Shown piece after piece: positions 6,193 through 46,271 of a stretch of 64,000 nucleotides of DNA. Numbering within the stretch: the stretch's first letter is position 1; each line of letters starts with the position of its first letter. Under the pieces are notes generated by a model. It searched no databases. It was not told the origin of the DNA and saw only the letters and a list, made by a program, of their open reading frames with translations. The DNA is from Actinocorallia herbida (GTDB taxonomy: Bacteria; Actinomycetota; Actinomycetes; Streptosporangiales; Streptosporangiaceae), in the NCBI RefSeq assembly GCF_003751225.1, contig NZ_RJKE01000001.1:2914001-2978000 (forward strand), given 5' to 3'. The position numbers and the translations under genes were made by a program.

Positions 6193-6220
6193 GGGGGTCC
6201 TCGGGCTCGGTCGTGGGGTG

Positions 6221-7591
6221 TCAGTCGAGGTCGCGCGGGGCGCCGGCGCCCATGTACTTCGCGAGGTTGTGGTGCAGGTTCGCCACTGCGCGCTCGCGGT
6301 ACGGGTTCGGCTTCGGGCCGGTGAAACCGCGGGCCTTCATGCCCTTCTGCACAGCGGCCATGTTGGAGAAGTCCTGCGGCAGGACCGTCCGCCAGTCCGG
6401 GTGGTCCGGGGGCGTGAAGACCCACTCGGTCTCCGGCTCCTCGCCCGGCGCGTACAGCTGGTAGACGGCGACCTCGAAGATGCACTTGTCGGGGTCGTAG
6501 CCGTAGGGGCGGGCGCTGTAGCAGAGCATGTTGTTCTGCCCGTGGCCGATCTGGAAGTTGGGGAAGATCTGCCAGGCCGTCCCGCTCGCCGCGACCGCCT
6601 CGGGGTCGACCGTCGGCCAGACGACGCCGCGGTCGGCGTCCTCGCGGCGGGCCGTCTCCAGCCAGTACTTCGCGACCTGGTCGGGCGGGGTGCCGTCGGG
6701 CAGCTCGGCGGCGAGCCGGTTGGCGACGTCCACCAGGGTCTCGGTGGTGTTGGTGTTGGCGTTCTCCCAGATGAAGTTCTGCATCTCCGCGGTCGAGACG
6801 CGGGCGTCGACGCCGCCGCCGATGCGCAGCTTGCCCTGGTTCTCCTCCAGGCCCTTGGGGGCCTCGAAGCCGATGTTGCTGTGCCTGCCCTGGACCCGGG
6901 ACCAGCCGAGGAAGCTGCCGAAGGGGATGAACTCCGGGTGGGTGTAGGGCACGTGGTACGTCTCGTTGAACGCCTCGAGCGCGACCTTCCAGTTGCAGTC
7001 GAAGACGAGCCAGCGCCGCCACCGGTAGCGGAAGCGCTCGAGATCGAACGACTTGAGCAGGGTCGGCGCGGGCTCCAGGTAGGTCCACAGCGGCTCGGCG
7101 TCCGGATCCATGGTGATCCAGATCCAGCCGCCCCAGGTCTCCAGCCTGACCTCGCCGAGCTTGATCTTGTCGTCGGTCAGGGTGCCCTGCCAGTCCTCCC
7201 GCTCGGGGACGCGGGTGCACCGGCCTTCGAGGTCGTAGCGCCAGCCGTGGAAGCCGCAGACGAACTGGCGGCCCCTGCCCCGTCCGTCGTGCGCGCCCTC
7301 GGGGGTGTCGACCAGGCGGCGGCCGCGGTGCGAGCAGACGTTGTAGTGGGCGCGGATCTCGTCGGGCGACGTCCGGACGACGATGATCGAGTCGTCCAGG
7401 ATGTCGTAGGTGAGGAAGTCGCCGACCTCGGGCAGCTCCTCCACCCGGCCGACCTGCTGCCACACCTTCGCCCACAGCCTGTCGCGCTCGGCCCTGGCCC
7501 ACTCCTCGGAGATGTAGGCCTCGACGCCGATGGTGAGCGGCCGCGACAGGTCCTCGGCCGCCGTGTCCGTGTGGTCGGCGGTTTCGCTCAT
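6221..7591 (-). CDS. Rieske non-heme iron oxygenase, alpha subunit
   Basis: A 456-aa ring-hydroxylating-type oxygenase. The Rieske [2Fe-2S] ligands are Cys86/His88 and Cys112/His115 (CSH...CGFH), and the catalytic iron motif is NETYHVPYTH with His213 and His218. The start chosen is ATG 7591 because GGAGGAAGTC precedes it; a TTG at 7603 is in frame but lies inside that ribosome site. No ferredoxin or reductase gene is in this operon; a VanB-type reductase lies far right at 60208-61149. The substrate is unknown; the family acts on aromatics, terpenoids, sterols and quaternary amines. Position between SDR and BVMO suggests it introduces the hydroxyl that is later oxidised to a ketone. Confidence 0.9.
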   Translation of the reverse strand: MSETADHTDTAAEDLSRPLTIGVEAYISEEWARAERDRLWAKVWQQVGRVEELPEVGDFLTYDILDDSIIVVRTSPDEIRAHYNVCSHRGRRLVDTPEGAHDGRGRGRQFVCGFHGWRYDLEGRCTRVPEREDWQGTLTDDKIKLGEVRLETWGGWIWITMDPDAEPLWTYLEPAPTLLKSFDLERFRYRWRRWLVFDCNWKVALEAFNETYHVPYTHPEFIPFGSFLGWSRVQGRHSNIGFEAPKGLEENQGKLRIGGGVDARVSTAEMQNFIWENANTNTTETLVDVANRLAAELPDGTPPDQVAKYWLETARREDADRGVVWPTVDPEAVAASGTAWQIFPNFQIGHGQNNMLCYSARPYGYDPDKCIFEVAVYQLYAPGEEPETEWVFTPPDHPDWRTVLPQDFSNMAAVQKGMKARGFTGPKPNPYRERAVANLHHNLAKYMGAGAPRDLD

Positions 7592-7656
7592 GACTTCCTC
7601 CAACCCGTCGGCGGACGGGGTGCGGTTGCGGGTTTGCTGACGTGTGGGGCGTTCCG

Positions 7657-8505
7657 CTAGAAGCGGGTGATCTCAGTACGGAACGCCTCGTCCTTGAGGA
7701 ACAGCGAGGTGTTGTCGGCGGCCAGCCAGGTCCACTTGAGGTTCAGACCGCCGTCCACCAGCAGGGTCTGGCCGGTGACGTAGGACGACAGGTCCGAGAG
7801 CAGGAAGAGGATCGCGCCGGCCTGCTCCTCGGGGGTGCCGCGGCGCCCCATGGCGATCGCGCGGGCGTCCCGCTCGGGGTCGGCCTCGACGTAGGTGAGC
7901 GAGGCGGGCGTCGCGGTGACGCCGGGGGCGACCGCGTTCACCCGGATCTCGGCCGACGCGAGTTCGACCGCCATCGTCCGGGTCGCCGCGACCAGCGCGG
8001 CCTTGGCGGTGCCGTAGCCGATGTGGAACGGCGCGGTGTTCATCCCGCTGATCGAGGAGACCGAGACGATCGAGCCCTTGCGGCCCTGGTCCTTGAGCTC
8101 GGCGGCGACCGCCTGGCTCATGAAGAACATCGTTTCCAGGTTCTGGGCGAACAGGGACCGCCAGGACTCGCGGGTGACCCGGGTGGAGGGCCGCCAGTCC
8201 GACGGGGCGGCGCCGCCCGCGACGTTGACGAGGCCGTAGAGGTCGCCGTCCGCTCCGCGGGCCGCCGCCAGGGCCGTCGCGATGCCCTCGTCCGTCGCCG
8301 CGTCGGCCGCGACGGGCACGACCTTGAGGCCCTCCTTCGCGAGGGGGGCGACGTGGGTGTCGAGGTTGTCCTGGGATCGGCTCACCGCGATGACCGTCGC
8401 GCCGGCCTGGGCGACCATGCGGGTCACCGTGGTGCCGATGCCGCCTCCGCCAGCGCCGGACACGATGACGACACGGCCTGCCATGCCGAGGAAGTCGGGG
8501 GACAT
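7657..8505 (-). CDS. Short-chain dehydrogenase/reductase
   Basis: A 282-aa SDR with a Gly-rich cofactor loop GAGGGGIG (17-24), catalytic Ser151, Tyr164 and Lys168 (YGTAK), and the family signature near the end (YVTGQTLLVDGG). The first turn is richer in glycine than the usual TGxxxGxG. The C-terminal tail after the VDGG strand is long and acidic-aromatic. It begins five bases after the SMP-30-like gene and is second in the leftward operon. It plausibly interconverts the alcohol made by the oxygenase and the ketone used by the BVMO, but direction and substrate are inferred from context only. Confidence 0.88.
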   Translation of the reverse strand: MSPDFLGMAGRVVIVSGAGGGGIGTTVTRMVAQAGATVIAVSRSQDNLDTHVAPLAKEGLKVVPVAADAATDEGIATALAAARGADGDLYGLVNVAGGAAPSDWRPSTRVTRESWRSLFAQNLETMFFMSQAVAAELKDQGRKGSIVSVSSISGMNTAPFHIGYGTAKAALVAATRTMAVELASAEIRVNAVAPGVTATPASLTYVEADPERDARAIAMGRRGTPEEQAGAILFLLSDLSSYVTGQTLLVDGGLNLKWTWLAADNTSLFLKDEAFRTEITRF

Positions 8506-8510
8506 ACCGG

Positions 8511-10118
8511 TCAGCCCTCCTTCCGGAAGGAGAGGACGCTGCCTTCGGCGTCACCGGAGACGTAGAGGGTGCCGTCCTGCCCTGCGGCGATCCCGGCGAA
8601 CAGGCCCTGCGGGCCGCTGAAGGGCGGGAGGCCCTTGAGGGGCTTGGGGTCCACGCCGGGAGGGGCGCCGACCGGGAGGCCGGAGGCGATGGTGGTGCGG
8701 ACCTTGCCGTCGAGGTCGATGTCGAGGAGGGTCTTGGCGCCCGCGTCGACCACGAGGAGGCGGGAGCCGCGGACCAGGATGCCCTGCGGGGTCTCCAGGC
8801 CGTCCGCGACGGTGTCGACGCCGGATCCGCGGAGCGCGACGACGCGGCCCGCGCCGGACTCGGACACCAGGCAGGTGCCGTCGGCGGTGAAGGCCACGCC
8901 GGTGGGCCCGTCCAGGCCGGACGCGAGGGTCGTCACCTGGCCGTCGCGCACGGAGACGACGCGCCCGGTGCCCTGCTCGGCGGCGACCACGGCGCCGTCG
9001 GGGGCCAGGGCCACGCCGTAGAGCTGGTCGAAGGGCTCGGTCTCCCCCGCGAGGATGTCGTGCTCGCCTTCGGCGGGCCGCCAGCGCGCGATCTGGCCGT
9101 TGGAGGTGGTGACGACGAAGGCGCCCGCGCCGTCGGCGGTGACGCCCCGGATGTAGCCGGGCCAGCCGGGGCTGAACAGCATGCCGAGGGTCTGCAGGCC
9201 GCCCTCGGGCGTGCGGGCGTAGAAGTAGGTGCCGTCGGAGATGTACAGGGTGCCGTCGGGGCCCACGGTGAGGTCGAGCGGCCAGGTCAGCCCGCCCGGA
9301 AGCACCTCGCGGGTCTTGCCGCCGCCCAGGACCTCGGTGATGTGGCCGGTGAAGCCGGAGACGAACAGGCGGCCGTTCACGAACGTCAGGTTGTCCAGTC
9401 CGGGCGCGATCGTCGCCAGGACCGTGCGGTCGCCGCTGCGCGGGTCGATGCGGAGCACCTCGCCGGTGGCGACCTGGGTGGAGACGATGAAGCCCTCGGC
9501 GTCGAACTTCACCGCGTCGGGGACGCCGAGGTCACCGGCGACGCGCTCGGGCTCGCCGCCGTCGGGGTCGATCCGCCAGATGTCGTTCGTGCCGAGCACC
9601 GGGTAGTAGAGCTTGCCGTCCGGGCCGAACTCCAGCGCGTTCGGCATCGGCAGGTTCTCGACCAGGACGCGGGGGGCGCCGCCGTTCGGGTCGAGCTCCA
9701 GGAGGCGGCCGCCGATCCGGCACTCGTCGATGAACAGCCGGCCCTGGTGGAAGGTGATGCCGTTGGCGCCGGGGACGTCGTCGCGGAGCACCCGGGTGCG
9801 GCCGTCCGCGGAGCGGACGCTGACCCTGCCGTCGTAGTACTCGGTGGCGTAGAGATCGCCGGCGGCGTCGAAGGCGAGGTCGTCGGGGGCGACGATCTCC
9901 GAGCCCATCGCGCTGACGGTCTCCAGCACGCCGGTGTCGACGTCGAGCGCGCTGATCTGGCTGCCCGCCACCTGCGCGACGTAGATGCGGCCGTCCGGCC
10001 CGGTGCGCAGGCCGTTCGCGCCGAACAGGCGGCTCGGCGGGGTGATCCGCGCCAGCGTCCAGCCTTCGGCGAGTGGAATCGAGGCGGGACCGGTATGACG
10101 CGCGCTGTTCTGTGCCAT
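8511..10118 (-). CDS. SMP-30/gluconolactonase-like beta-propeller protein, double length
   Basis: First gene of the leftward operon; 535 aa starting at ATG 10118, nine bases after GGGAG. The sequence is a run of about 40-residue blades of the type 'GPDGRIYVAQ', 'DAAGDLYATEYYDG', 'GPDGTLYISDG', continuing to the end. SMP-30/gluconolactonases are about 300 aa with one six-bladed propeller, so this looks like two propellers in tandem (roughly 1-285 and 286-535). No signal peptide is seen. Because it heads an operon with a BVMO, a lactone hydrolase role is attractive; a vestibule or sensor function is possible because metal ligands cannot be placed by eye. Confidence 0.75.
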   Translation of the reverse strand: MAQNSARHTGPASIPLAEGWTLARITPPSRLFGANGLRTGPDGRIYVAQVAGSQISALDVDTGVLETVSAMGSEIVAPDDLAFDAAGDLYATEYYDGRVSVRSADGRTRVLRDDVPGANGITFHQGRLFIDECRIGGRLLELDPNGGAPRVLVENLPMPNALEFGPDGKLYYPVLGTNDIWRIDPDGGEPERVAGDLGVPDAVKFDAEGFIVSTQVATGEVLRIDPRSGDRTVLATIAPGLDNLTFVNGRLFVSGFTGHITEVLGGGKTREVLPGGLTWPLDLTVGPDGTLYISDGTYFYARTPEGGLQTLGMLFSPGWPGYIRGVTADGAGAFVVTTSNGQIARWRPAEGEHDILAGETEPFDQLYGVALAPDGAVVAAEQGTGRVVSVRDGQVTTLASGLDGPTGVAFTADGTCLVSESGAGRVVALRGSGVDTVADGLETPQGILVRGSRLLVVDAGAKTLLDIDLDGKVRTTIASGLPVGAPPGVDPKPLKGLPPFSGPQGLFAGIAAGQDGTLYVSGDAEGSVLSFRKEG

Positions 10119-10198
10119 GGCGACTTGCTCCCAGGAAGCATTCGGGCAATGCGGGGGGAAGACCGGGAATTAATCACGAGAATTGTCTTTTTAGAGAG

Positions 10199-10215
10199 CG
10201 AGAATCCTGCTCTCG
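10199..10215. promoter_or_regulatory. Operator-like palindrome, left arm
   Basis: CGAGAATCCTGCTCTCG, an inverted repeat with 5-bp arms (CGAGA/TCTCG); the wider pair GAGAGC/GCTCTC flanks it from 10194. It matches the site at 10769-10785 in 13 of 17 positions. On the minus strand it follows a candidate promoter TTGCCC-N17-TTACGT, so a bound repressor would block the leftward operon. A further half site, CGAGAATT, lies at 10177-10184. Confidence 0.55.
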
Positions 10216-10275
10216 TTGTGGCGAACGTAACACCAGATCCGGCGACCGGGCAACAGGTCTGTTTATGCGTATGGT

Positions 10276-10294
10276 CCATTACTTGAAGTAATGG
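10276..10294. promoter_or_regulatory. 19-bp perfect palindrome
   Basis: CCATTACTT-G-AAGTAATGG has perfect 9-bp arms around one base. The core TTACTTGAAGTAA resembles MarR-family operators in shape and length. No MarR gene is adjacent; the only MarR gene in the window (49325) has different sites. Function is inferred from symmetry alone. Confidence 0.5.
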
Positions 10295-10728
10295 GACGTG
10301 TGCATGGGGTACTGGCGCGCGGAGGAGGGGTCGGTGCTCGGGGGTGGGGTGTCAGGGGCCGCTCGGCCGGATGGTGTGGCGACGGCCGTCGTCACGTCCC
10401 CCTTGCTATCACAATCATTATAAGGATTCAACAGATGGGAACGAGGTGGGAGAGGGCTGCCCGGCGGGTGGTCCGCGAGGCGTCCACTGCCATGGAAGGC
10501 CAGGTCATCAGGGATTTTCGGGACCGTGATGGGGCCTGTTCGCGGGGGTGGAAGGGCTGGGCGGGTCCCGTTCCGGACGCGGCACGCGGTCTTCGTCGTC
10601 GGGTTTCGGGGAGGCTGGGAGGGAGCTCGGGATCCTCGCCGGGGTGTCGGGTGGGCGGACCGGGAAGGAAGGGGGTGCGCGTGGGGCGGGGCCGGGACCT
10701 CGCGTCCGCCGATCGGCGCCCGGGTGGG

Positions 10729-10785
10729 TTGACGCCCGCAGCGTGCCGTGTAAAAATCCCGAATCGCACGAGAATTATATTCTCG
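10729..10785 (+). promoter_or_regulatory. Promoter and operator of the right arm
   Basis: TTGACG (10729-10734), 16 bases, then TAAAAA (10751-10756) form a sigma-70-like promoter pointing at the MDR gene. Directly downstream is the perfect palindrome CGAGAAT-TAT-ATTCTCG (10769-10785). This promoter-then-operator order is mirrored at the other end of the spacer, which indicates one repressor for both arms. Confidence 0.6.
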
Positions 10786-10889
10786 ATATTGAGATCGTAA
10801 TGACCAGAGTGGCAAAGGGTGGTGCGCCGGAGGCCGGTGAAGTAGGCCGTCGCGCGCAGCTCCGTGAAGTCGGACGAAGAGGATTCCTC

Positions 10890-11873
10890 ATGTTCTCCGC
10901 ATTGCTGATCGAGAAGGACGAGGCGGGCCGGCGGGTCGCCGTCGCCGCGCTGGACGAGGAGCGCCTCCCCGAAGGGGACGTCACCGTGGACGTCGCGTAC
11001 TCCACGCTGAACTACAAGGACGCCCTGGCCATCACCGGCGCGTCCCCCGTCGTCCGCAAGTTCCCGATGGTCCCCGGCATCGACTTCGCGGGCACCGTCA
11101 CCGCGAGCGGCCACCCCGACCACAGGCCCGGCGACTCCGTGGTGCTGAACGGCTGGGGCGTCGGCGAGAGCCACTGGGGCGGGCTCGCCCAGCGCGCGCG
11201 GGTGAACGGCGACTGGCTCGTGCCGCTGCCCACGGCGTTCACCGCCCGTCAGGCGATGGCGATCGGTACCGCGGGCTACACCGCGAGCCTCTGCGTCGAC
11301 GCCCTGCTCGCCTATGGCACCCGTCCGGATCAGGGCGAAGTCCTGGTGACCGGCGCGACCGGCGGCGTCGGCAGCGTGGCGATCGCGCTGCTCTCCCGGG
11401 CCGGATTCCAGGTGGCCGCCGTCACGGGCAAGCCCTCGGAGGCCGACTACCTCCATGCTCTCGGCGCGACCACCGTCCTGGACCGGGCCGCGTTCGCCGA
11501 AGCCGGAAAGCCGCTCCAGAAGGAGCGCTGGGCCGCCGTCGTCGACACCGCGGGCAGCCACATCCTCGCCAACGCCTGCGCGCAGATCCGCTACGGCGGC
11601 GCGGTCGCCGCCTGCGGCCTCGCCCAGGGCATGGACTTTCCTGCCAGCGTCGCCCCGTTCATCCTGCGCGGTGTCAGCCTCCTCGGCGTCGACAGCGTCA
11701 TGGCGCCCAAGGCCCGCAGGCTCACCGCCTGGGAGCGGCTGTCCCGCGACCTCGACGCCGCCGCGCTGGAGTCGATCGCGCGGGAGGTCCCCCTGGCCGA
11801 GGCCATCGACGCGGCGGCCGGCTTCCTGGACGGCAAGATCCGGGGCCGCATCGTCGTGGACGTCAACAGGTAG
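10890..11873 (+). CDS. MDR-family oxidoreductase, acrylyl-CoA reductase (YhdH/AcuI) type
   Basis: A 327-aa zinc-free medium-chain reductase that would reduce an activated C=C bond with NADPH. The N-terminal region has the AcuI/YhdH-type series '[13 protein letters not shown]' and '[12 protein letters not shown]', and the nucleotide-binding loop is [11 protein letters not shown]; Zn-binding cysteines are absent. The ATG at 10890 is preceded by GAGGATTCCTC. It leads the rightward arm, with the MaoC-like gene 12 bases downstream. Together with hydratase and CoA ligase it suggests processing of an enoyl-CoA intermediate. Assignment to the subfamily is good; the substrate is not known. Confidence 0.85.
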
Positions 11874-43406: not shown

Positions 43407-43618
43407 GCCGCGGGACCTCTTCGACGGATGACGGGGGGACGCACACGGAGAACTCCTTAGATACCAGGACGAATCACGGCACCCTACCGTCATGATCGGC
43501 GGCCTCGCAGGACGAACCGGGAGTGATGCGACACAGTCCCCCGCGCCCGGCGAGATCCCCTATCCTTCGTGACCGCGTGCCCACGGGGGACGCCCCCACA
43601 GGAGGAAAGGCACGGTCC

Positions 43619-44503
43619 ATGACGGTTCTCGCGATCGACATCGGCGGCACCAAGTTCGCCGCGGCCCTCGCCGAACCCGACGGGACGCTCCGCGCCAGGT
43701 GCGAAGTCCCCGTCGGCGGTGACCCGTCGGCGGTGCTGCACACGTTGCTCGACCGGTTCCCGGCGGACGCGGTCGGCGCCGTCGGCATCGGCTCGGCGGG
43801 CCCGCTCGACCTCGGGGCGGGCACGGTCAGCCCCGTCAACATCCCCGCGTGGCGCGGCTTCCCGCTCGTCGCGGAGGTCGAGGGGAGGCTGCCCGGCCGT
43901 CCGGTGCGGCTCGCCGGGGACGCCCAGTGCATGGCGCTCGGCGAGTGGTGGCGCGGCGGGACCGGCCACGACTCCCTGCTCGGCGTCGTCGTCTCGACGG
44001 GCATCGGCGGCGGCCTCGTCCTGGACGGCCGCCCCTACTTCGGCCCGGCCGGCAACGCCGGATTCCTCGGCCACGTGGTCGTCGACCCCACCGGCGACCC
44101 CTGCGGCTGCGGCGCCACGGGCTGCCTGGAGACCATCGCCAGCGGCCCGAGCATGGTCCGCCGCGCTCTGGCGCGCGGCTGGGCGCCCGGCTCCGTCCCG
44201 CCCGACGCCCGCGCCCTCGCCGACGCGGCCCGTGCGGGCGACCCGCTCGCCCTCGCCGTCTTCGCCGAGGCGGCGGCCGCCCTCGGCGCGGTCATCGCCG
44301 ACGCCGCCACCCTCCTGGACCTCCGCCACACCGTCATCGGCGGCGGCCTCGCCGCCGCGGCCGACCTCCTCCTGGACCCCATCCGCCGCACCCTCACCGC
44401 CCGCCGCCCGGCCACCCTCTCGCCCGTCACCGTCTCCGCGACGGCCCTGCGCCGCGACGCGGGCCTCTACGGCGCCGCGGCCCTGGCCGTCCTCCCCACC
44501 TGA
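43619..44503 (+). CDS. ROK-family sugar kinase
   Basis: A 294-aa kinase starting at ATG 43619 (MTVLAIDIGG) after AGGAAAGGCAC. Phosphate loop DIGGTKFAAAL, catalytic Asp in GDAQCMALGEWWRGG, and the zinc-finger GHVVVDPTGDPCGCGATGCLE are intact. The lack of an N-terminal helix-turn-helix makes it an enzyme, not a repressor. Length and motifs fit glucokinase, N-acetylmannosamine kinase or similar; which one is unclear. It may phosphorylate sugar released by the divergent sulfatase, by context only. Confidence 0.88.
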   Translation: MTVLAIDIGGTKFAAALAEPDGTLRARCEVPVGGDPSAVLHTLLDRFPADAVGAVGIGSAGPLDLGAGTVSPVNIPAWRGFPLVAEVEGRLPGRPVRLAGDAQCMALGEWWRGGTGHDSLLGVVVSTGIGGGLVLDGRPYFGPAGNAGFLGHVVVDPTGDPCGCGATGCLETIASGPSMVRRALARGWAPGSVPPDARALADAARAGDPLALAVFAEAAAALGAVIADAATLLDLRHTVIGGGLAAAADLLLDPIRRTLTARRPATLSPVTVSATALRRDAGLYGAAALAVLPT

Positions 44504-44831
44504 CGCCCCACCGACCCGGCACCCGGCTCGCAGTCCTCCGCCTCCGCCACTTCTTCTTCACCTACTCCGGGGACCGACGCCGTCATCCCGGCATCGGTAC
44601 TTATGCCATCTGGGTGAATCGTAATAAGGGCTATAAAGCGGACGAACATCTCGGAAGGTATAAAAACCACTACTTGTCGGTAAGTTCGTGGGGAAAATAC
44701 CTGAATGTGGAATTGTTGCTAGGGTTCTGACCAGTCAGAAACCACTCCTCGGTGGAGGCGGCCCTGGCGTCCGGCCCCTGTCGTCCCGCCGTGCGCGGAC
44801 GGTTCGGCCGGGGCGGGCACGATGGAGCGAG
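44504..44831. other. Spacer with an AT-rich island upstream of the P450
   Basis: From about 44583 to 44740 base composition drops to roughly half A+T in otherwise GC-rich DNA (e.g. GTAATAAGGGCTATAAAGC, GGTATAAAAACC). A 38-codon frame (44614-44730) starts with GTG but has no ribosome site and no recognised similarity. A 16-bp palindrome at 44725-44740 is the only clear regulatory element. Confidence 0.65.
44725..44740. promoter_or_regulatory. Palindrome before the P450 gene
   Basis: TTCTGAC-CA-GTCAGAA has perfect 7-bp arms, 92 bases before the P450 start. Size and symmetry suit a TetR or LysR dimer. No divergent regulator gene is adjacent, so the binding protein is unknown. Confidence 0.5.
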
Positions 44832-46271
44832 ATGCCGACCGGCCAGAGCAGTGACGGGTCCACCGCGTCGAAGAAGGCGAACGGCCGCTCGGTGCGGGGA
44901 GGACTCGCGACGGCGGCCGCCGAGCCGCTCATGACCGCGGACTTCGCCGACGACCTCGGCCCCTTCCTCGACGGACTGCGCGACCGGCACGGGCCCGTCG
45001 CCCCCGTCGGCCTGTACGGCGTCCCGGTCTGGATCGTGCTCGGCTACCGCGAGGTCCTCGAGGTCCTGCACAACCGGAACCGGGTGTGGACCAAGGACAC
45101 CGCGCGCTGGAAGGCGCGCGCCGAAGGCAGGGTCCCGGCGGACTGGCCGTTCCTGACCGCGCCCGAGGCGGACGGCGTCCTGTTCCTCGAGGGGCCCAAG
45201 CACACCGAGCGGCGCGGCACATGGCTCGCCGCGCTGCCCCCGTTCCAGGACCAGACCCACCCCGTGGCCCGCGACCTGCAAGAGCGCTGCCGCGCCTATG
45301 CCGACGAACTCGTCGACCTCCTCGCCGACGGCGCCACGCGCGGCTCCGCCGACCTCGCCGCGCAGTACGCCCGGCCGCTGATGCTCATGCTCTGCCAGGA
45401 GATGATCGGCGTCACCGCGGTGACCGACGACCTCCTCCTCGACGTGTGGCGCACCATGGACATGGGGCCGGAGTCCCGCCCCGCGCTCGCCCGGGTCACC
45501 GCGCACGCCGTCGCCGCGGTCGCGGAGAAGCGGCGCAGGCCGGGCGACGACCTGCCCTCCCTGATGCTCGCCGCGGCCGGGCCCGACCTGACCGACGAGG
45601 AGATCGCGGTCGACATGGTCGCGCTGATCATCCACCTCGGCGACATGGCGTCCTCCCTCATCTGCTCCACCGTCCTGGAGGTGGTGAGCGGTGACGCCGG
45701 CGCGCGGGCCAGCCTCGCGGGCGGGCTGGTACGCGAGACGGTGAACCGGGCGGTCCTCACCGAACCGCCCAACTCCCACCTCACCCTCCGGTTCGCGGTG
45801 GCCGACACCGTGCTCGGCGGTGTGCCGGTGGCGGCTGGCGACCCCGTCCTGCTGTCGGTCGCCGCGGCGCACCGCGACCCCGCGTTCGCCCAGGCCAGGC
45901 AGGGGATCTACAGCTCGCGCGCGCATCTGGCGTGGGGCGCGGGCGCGCACCGGTGCCCCGGCGCGGAACTCGCGATGACCCTGGTGGCGATCGCCGTCGA
46001 GCAGCTCTTCGAGCGGCTCGCCGCGCTGGAACTCGTCCTGCCGCCCGAGGAGCTCTCGTGGCGGCCGTCCCCCGCCGTGCGCGCGCTGCGCGCCCTGCCC
46101 GTCAACTTCCGGCTGCACCCGCCCGTCACCGGGACGCGGCCCTTGCCGATCATCCAGGCGGTCGCGCCGGCCGAGGCGCCCGCCCCGGCGCCGAAGCGGG
46201 CGCGCCGGTCGGTCAGCCGCGCCCTCCTCGGCAGGGTGGTCCGGGCCGTCCGCGGTGACTCCGCCCGCTGA
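44832..46271 (+). CDS. Cytochrome P450 lacking the ExxR motif (CYP156/157-like)
   Basis: A 479-aa P450-fold protein. The heme-binding loop is HLAWGAGAHRCPGAELA with thiolate Cys375. The K-helix that should hold E-x-x-R reads LVRETVNRAVLTEPPN; aligned on the PP, the ExxR slot is RAVL, and no E-x-x-R exists nearby. The I-helix is IIHLGDMASSLICST, with Asp but Ala in place of the oxygen-activating Thr. Streptomyces CYP157 proteins also lack ExxR and have the same 'SRAHLAWGAG.HRCPG' heme loop. Typical conservon genes around CYP156/157 are absent here. Start ATG 44832 follows GGAGCGAG. Function is unknown. Confidence 0.85.
   Translation: MPTGQSSDGSTASKKANGRSVRGGLATAAAEPLMTADFADDLGPFLDGLRDRHGPVAPVGLYGVPVWIVLGYREVLEVLHNRNRVWTKDTARWKARAEGRVPADWPFLTAPEADGVLFLEGPKHTERRGTWLAALPPFQDQTHPVARDLQERCRAYADELVDLLADGATRGSADLAAQYARPLMLMLCQEMIGVTAVTDDLLLDVWRTMDMGPESRPALARVTAHAVAAVAEKRRRPGDDLPSLMLAAAGPDLTDEEIAVDMVALIIHLGDMASSLICSTVLEVVSGDAGARASLAGGLVRETVNRAVLTEPPNSHLTLRFAVADTVLGGVPVAAGDPVLLSVAAAHRDPAFAQARQGIYSSRAHLAWGAGAHRCPGAELAMTLVAIAVEQLFERLAALELVLPPEELSWRPSPAVRALRALPVNFRLHPPVTGTRPLPIIQAVAPAEAPAPAPKRARRSVSRALLGRVVRAVRGDSAR

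Follow-up and report, generated by a model that had tools for sequence, protein, structure and literature searches.

Described P450s without the ERR triad

The ERR triad of cytochromes P450 is held to be necessary for folding and heme uptake, and mutants affected in it usually misfold (PMC3990721, PMC4694641). A census of Streptomyces found the EXXR glutamate in all P450s except short fragments (PMC6408508), and another census discards motif-lacking proteins as pseudo-P450s (PMC7369989). The published exceptions that we found are CYP157 and P450s of flatworms. CYP157 proteins without EXXR are already on record, at least in the form in which they are cited in later papers (PMC3599690, PMC3990721, PMC4694641), and the CYP157C motif, published as EQSLW, places the Glu one residue off the slot. 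CYP157 is a published precedent for the loss of EXXR and limits the surprise of the present case. The flatworm protein CYP3050A1 from Schistosoma mansoni also lacks EXXR and PERF and is essential to the organism (PMC4694641), but it is eukaryotic and belongs to an unrelated lineage. It has been proposed that CvnE proteins modulate CvnA kinases devoid of a sensor domain, or provide their sensory input (PMC13343842).

The gene described here lies in the window, the stretch of 64,000 nucleotides of DNA that was analysed (Table 1). We are confident that its product is a heme-thiolate protein of P450 fold that has lost the ERR triad, an orphan sister of the CvnE/CYP157-like P450s. In the literature searched, no paper was found that describes either an Arg in the Glu slot or the clade of the protein, referred to below as the focal clade. 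In the many natural proteins of this clade the Glu-to-Arg reversal is fixed and the I-helix acid retained, so that the purpose of the triad can be tested directly.

Table 1 Features of the P450 locus (positions are those of the window)
Feature	Position	Strand	Evidence
Perfect palindrome TTCTGACCAGTCAGAA, candidate operator	44725..44740	.	~90 bp upstream of the P450 ATG
P450-fold protein, 479 aa, ATG start	44832..46271	+	Pfam p450 above cut-off; AF2 pLDDT 84.8
Arg128, C-helix heme-propionate contact, kept	45213..45215	+	26/26 focal, 8/8 canonical, 8/14 CvnE-like rows
I-helix Asp271-Met272-Ala273; acid kept, Met in the Thr slot	45642..45650	+	81-sequence alignment
K-helix E302-T-V-N305-R306-A-V-L309; ExxR slot = RAVL	45735..45758	+	E302 and N305 invariant (81 homologues)
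Arg320, post-PP heme-propionate contact, kept	45789..45791	+	81/81
Meander, shortened (residues 349-363), without the PxRF arginine	45876..45920	+	clade alignment and canonical comparison
Heme loop HLAWGAGAHRCPG (residues 365-377) with Cys375; Trp368 replaces the proximal Phe	45924..45962	+	C375 and W368 both 81/81
Basic amphipathic C-terminal helix (residues 460-474, predicted) on a flexible tail	46209..46253	+	AF2; tail in 79 scored members

Gene product and fold

The gene is intact and its product is a predicted heme-binding protein of the P450 type; it is not a broken gene. The Pfam p450 match scores 33.1 bits against a cut-off of 22.8 and covers residues 317-395 only. CYP154C proteins top the list of a PDB sequence search. 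The AF2 model, built with 36 clade sequences, has a pTM of 0.86; the N-terminus, meander residues 358-361 and most of the tail (435-457) are its parts of low confidence. Both Foldseek and VIA-align returned CYP154C as the closest solved fold (CYP154C1 and CYP154C2; 1gwi, 9u53; Z ~46, ~30% identity), the VIA-align superposition on 1gwi_B giving Z 45.9 across 384 residues. The B-C loop WxAxxxGxxPADWPL is common to the focal protein and CYP154C, whereas the ERR triad and an I-helix HETT motif are present in CYP154C1 only. Membership in the P450 fold is indicated by the Pfam score, the superposition on 1gwi_B and the heme Cys375 found in 81/81 homologues.

Distribution and selection

Relatives were sought in 395 genomes of the class and 343 of the family, plus a named collection. 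A query of the genome contigs with the single protein yielded no match, and a search with an alignment yielded 290 relatives. The focal relatives share ~42-57% identity, and a clear score gap sets them apart from a second group of matches with 32-40%. Named members come from Actinomadura, Thermomonospora, Nonomuraea, Microbispora, Acrocarpospora, Sphaerisporangium, Spirillospora and Streptomyces; the lineage is widespread in actinobacteria. Among the matches listed in the family search, one genus holds exactly one match per genome in 59 genomes. In the window's own genus the gene is present in one of three genomes and thus patchy.

Close pairs in the clade are under purifying selection, with dN/dS values of 0.12-0.37 (23 pairs). 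The window copy deviates at only 6 of 102 near-invariant columns; its branch is long (0.83 in the 48-row tree described below).

K-helix and meander

The K-helix of the focal protein reads LVRETVNRAVLTEPP, also given as VRETVNRAVLTEPP, and residues 300-310 are helical in the AF2 model. A preliminary description had placed RAVL in the ExxR slot. The assignment held in a PP-anchored alignment and in a MAFFT alignment with canonical P450s (n = 8, seven from the same genome and CYP154C1): the Glu slot is occupied by R306 and the Arg slot by L309. Across 81 aligned homologues, residue 306 is Arg in 80 and Lys in one, residue 309 is Met (37), Ile (16), Leu (14), Ala (9) or Thr (5), and residues 302 (Glu) and 305 (Asn) are invariant. 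Since the motif is fixed throughout the clade, it reflects neither chance nor a sequencing error. An ExxR in a shifted position, the outcome that would have spoken against the assignment, was ruled out: E..R occurs within residues 290-325 in none of the 81 sequences, and the conserved ExxNR has one residue more than the motif. A survey of the same genome covered 40 P450 places, five of them without an ORF by the heme-loop pattern. The other P450 ORFs found by this pattern kept ExxR in 38 of 38 cases, and the exceptions seen were the focal gene and a conservon-linked P450 at 7.93 Mb with the motif NEVLW.

No conserved meander Arg was found among the 81 homologues, and the PxRF meander is absent from the focal clade and the CvnE-like group alike. 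The pattern P.RF/D.RF gave 13 matches, which were read as the D349-P-R-F352 stretch, in which residue 351 is variable. Residue 363 is Arg in 81/81. As judged from these alignments, the whole ERR triad is lost: the K-helix Glu has become Arg, the K-helix Arg has given way to a hydrophobic or small residue, and the meander Arg is missing.

I-helix and heme contacts

The I-helix aligns with that of CYP154C1 without gaps from LTD (residues 253-255) to LI (276-277). Asp271 therefore falls in the acid position, paired with Glu, and Met272 in the position of the catalytic Thr (P450cam Thr252), while Ala273 pairs with the following Thr. An alternative with Ala in the Thr slot, obtained from a gapped HMMER alignment, was dropped because the gaps cancel and the gapless alignment is preferred. 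The loss of the oxygen-activation Thr, noticed early on, is thus confirmed, but its replacement is not the Ala originally named. Residue 271 is Asp in 80 sequences and Glu in one (n = 81), and residue 272 is His (34), Phe (18), Val (15), Tyr (7), Met (3), Leu (3) or Ile (1). P450 enzymes use the I-helix acid in their oxygen-activation relay.

The heme Cys is kept in every homologue, as had been claimed; it is not the only invariant residue, since Arg128, Arg320, His/Arg373 and Asp271 are conserved too. The heme contacts and the I-helix acid thus persist, whereas nothing remains of the ERR triad and the Thr. At position 368 (window 45933-45935), seven residues ahead of the heme Cys, the clade has Trp and not Phe throughout. 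The proximal Phe position tunes the heme potential in other P450s.

Phylogenetic position

In a tree of 48 rows comprising focal, CvnE-like and canonical P450s, the focal proteins formed one clade (support 100/100) and the CvnE-like rows grouped at 84/82. Together they split from the canonical P450s at 100/100. The kinship to the CYP157-type group suggested by the preliminary description is borne out, and the focal clade is a new branch beside CYP157-type P450s, as placed against CvnE/CYP157-like rows. Identity to these rows is 32-40%, compared with the >40% to named CYP157 members that defines CYP157, none of which are in the set. The K-helix of CYP157 ends in LW (EVLW/EQSLW); that of the clade follows NR-x-x-[MILAT] and never has Trp (n = 81).

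Both groups lack ExxR, the PxRF meander and the catalytic Thr in its place, and both keep the heme Cys. In the CvnE-like rows (n = 14) the Glu slot holds Glu in seven, His in five, and Ala and Leu in one each, so ExxR is already eroded there. With Glu in only half of these rows, the contrast originally drawn with a Glu-keeping CYP157, and the greater rarity deduced from it, fails. The groups differ in the Arg slot, which is Trp in CYP157/CvnE and Met, Ile, Leu, Ala or Thr in the focal clade, in the Glu slot, which is Arg in the focal clade, and in the I-helix acid, which is mostly Gln there (10/14 at residue 271) and Asp here. The conservon genes are a further difference, treated below.

C-terminal tail

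After the last strand, the focal proteins continue with a tail of median 48 aa (79 scored members). A basic amphipathic helix at the tail end was found in all scored members (RSSLWRYLTGLIR and SLVRRVLRMMR are examples), and the last 18 residues carry a net charge of at least +3 in 96% of them. The tail suggests that this predicted heme-thiolate protein is probably attached to the membrane as a peripheral protein. The conservon-linked rows L027, L031, L037, L039 and L059 end 7-16 aa past the last strand. An aromatic amphipathic end was seen in L029 and L034, both conservon-linked, and in L028, L030, L032, L033 and L036. Four of the latter (L030, L032, L033, L036) form a separate tight CvnE-like group with the K-helix DHVMW; the short loci examined around them showed no conservon genes.

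Genomic context

Homologues of CvnA, CvnB or CvnC were found neither in the window, as the preliminary description had stated, nor at ~100 focal loci. A place next to cvnA-D characterizes CvnE genes; none of the focal genes at these loci has it. Conservon genes adjoin 8 of 14 CvnE-like loci, the six others being covered by 4-kb loci only. Genome-wide, there are 15 roadblock and 11 DUF742 matches, and the nearest roadblock match, at 2.72 Mb, is ~240 kb from the focal gene. A conserved operon partner was rejected: neighbour clustering of 80 loci revealed no gene common to all 12 subclades, the widest families spanning three. The lack of a neighbour common across subclades indicates that no redox partner or pathway is linked to the gene. 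In the window, the flanks encode a ROK-family protein (43523-44503), a sulfatase, a DUF3592 protein and a TetR regulator.

Possible function

We tentatively favour a stand-alone heme-thiolate protein with a sensor or regulator role, in a sister clade to the conservon P450s, although we hold this to be somewhat short of probable. We lean towards it because of the kinship with CvnE, the absence of neighbours with redox or biosynthetic roles, the tail and the single-copy retention in one genus. The proximal side would be held by a rebuilt K-helix/meander contact around the invariant E302, N305 and R306, and the C-terminal helix would anchor the protein at the inner face of the membrane or on a partner in the membrane. 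The heme might chiefly be a switch responsive to a ligand or to redox state, in line with the proposal for CvnE, rather than the centre of a high-turnover oxygenase. It is doubtful that the clade represents Actinomycetota stand-alone heme-thiolate sensors split from CvnE and characterized by a charge-reversed K-helix (ExxNR) and C-terminal amphipathic membrane attachment. The main point against a sensor is the retention of Asp271, which is mostly Gln in the CvnE-like group; the absence of conservon genes at the focal loci is a further one. The near-fixed Asp271 and the retention of all heme contacts speak instead for a working P450 oxygenase, in which Asp271 and water would deliver protons, a task usually shared with Thr, electrons would come from ferredoxins with genes at other loci (or peroxide would be used), and the K-helix would fold without ERR. 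Also in favour of this reading, the solved folds nearest to the focal protein are the CYP154C steroid/macrolide hydroxylases, and an Ala in the Thr slot does not prevent activity in CYP107A1 and CYP158A2. Because the ferredoxins of actinobacterial P450 enzymes are often encoded elsewhere, the absence of linked partners is weak evidence. We nevertheless rate an oxygenase as possible rather than likely, given a sister group with eroded oxygen-activation residues and regulatory linkage and no recurrent biosynthetic or redox neighbour. A peroxygenase was one of the functions first considered; one of the CYP152 type is disfavoured because the I-helix Arg-Pro that replaces acid-Thr in CYP152 is absent, the clade having Asp followed by His, Phe, Val, Tyr or Met.

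The lost Thr and the invariant Trp368 at the proximal Phe position, which would shift the heme potential, would also suit a heme enzyme that catalyses a non-oxidative reaction, for example isomerization, dehydration or a nitric-oxide-type reaction; this is improbable, as features of known non-oxidative P450s were not identified in the sequence and the acid is kept. Still less credible is a degenerate heme-free scaffold resembling the P450-derived glycosyltransferase activators. TIGR04515, the family of these activators, is among the matches of the focal protein, but its 52.6 bits fall below the curated cut-off of 343. The short Pfam span and the long branch of the window copy also speak for such a scaffold, whereas the invariant Cys375 and propionate contacts, the low dN/dS of the close pairs and the few deviant columns of the window copy argue against it.

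Further observations at the loci

The palindrome TTCTGACCAGTCAGAA is expected 0.08 times by chance in the window at two or fewer mismatches. As an operator of the clade it was ruled out by its absence from the relatives, so that it is possibly a strain-specific operator. In the same genome, locus L059 (G000:C1:7923001-7943000) carries at 6216-11618 a classic conservon followed by the CYP157-like P450 with NEVLW; the other strand holds a second P450, of the canonical type. In the deepest focal subclade, the genes at L057 and L058 adjoin others whose translations resemble trehalose synthase and other proteins of glycogen/maltose metabolism.
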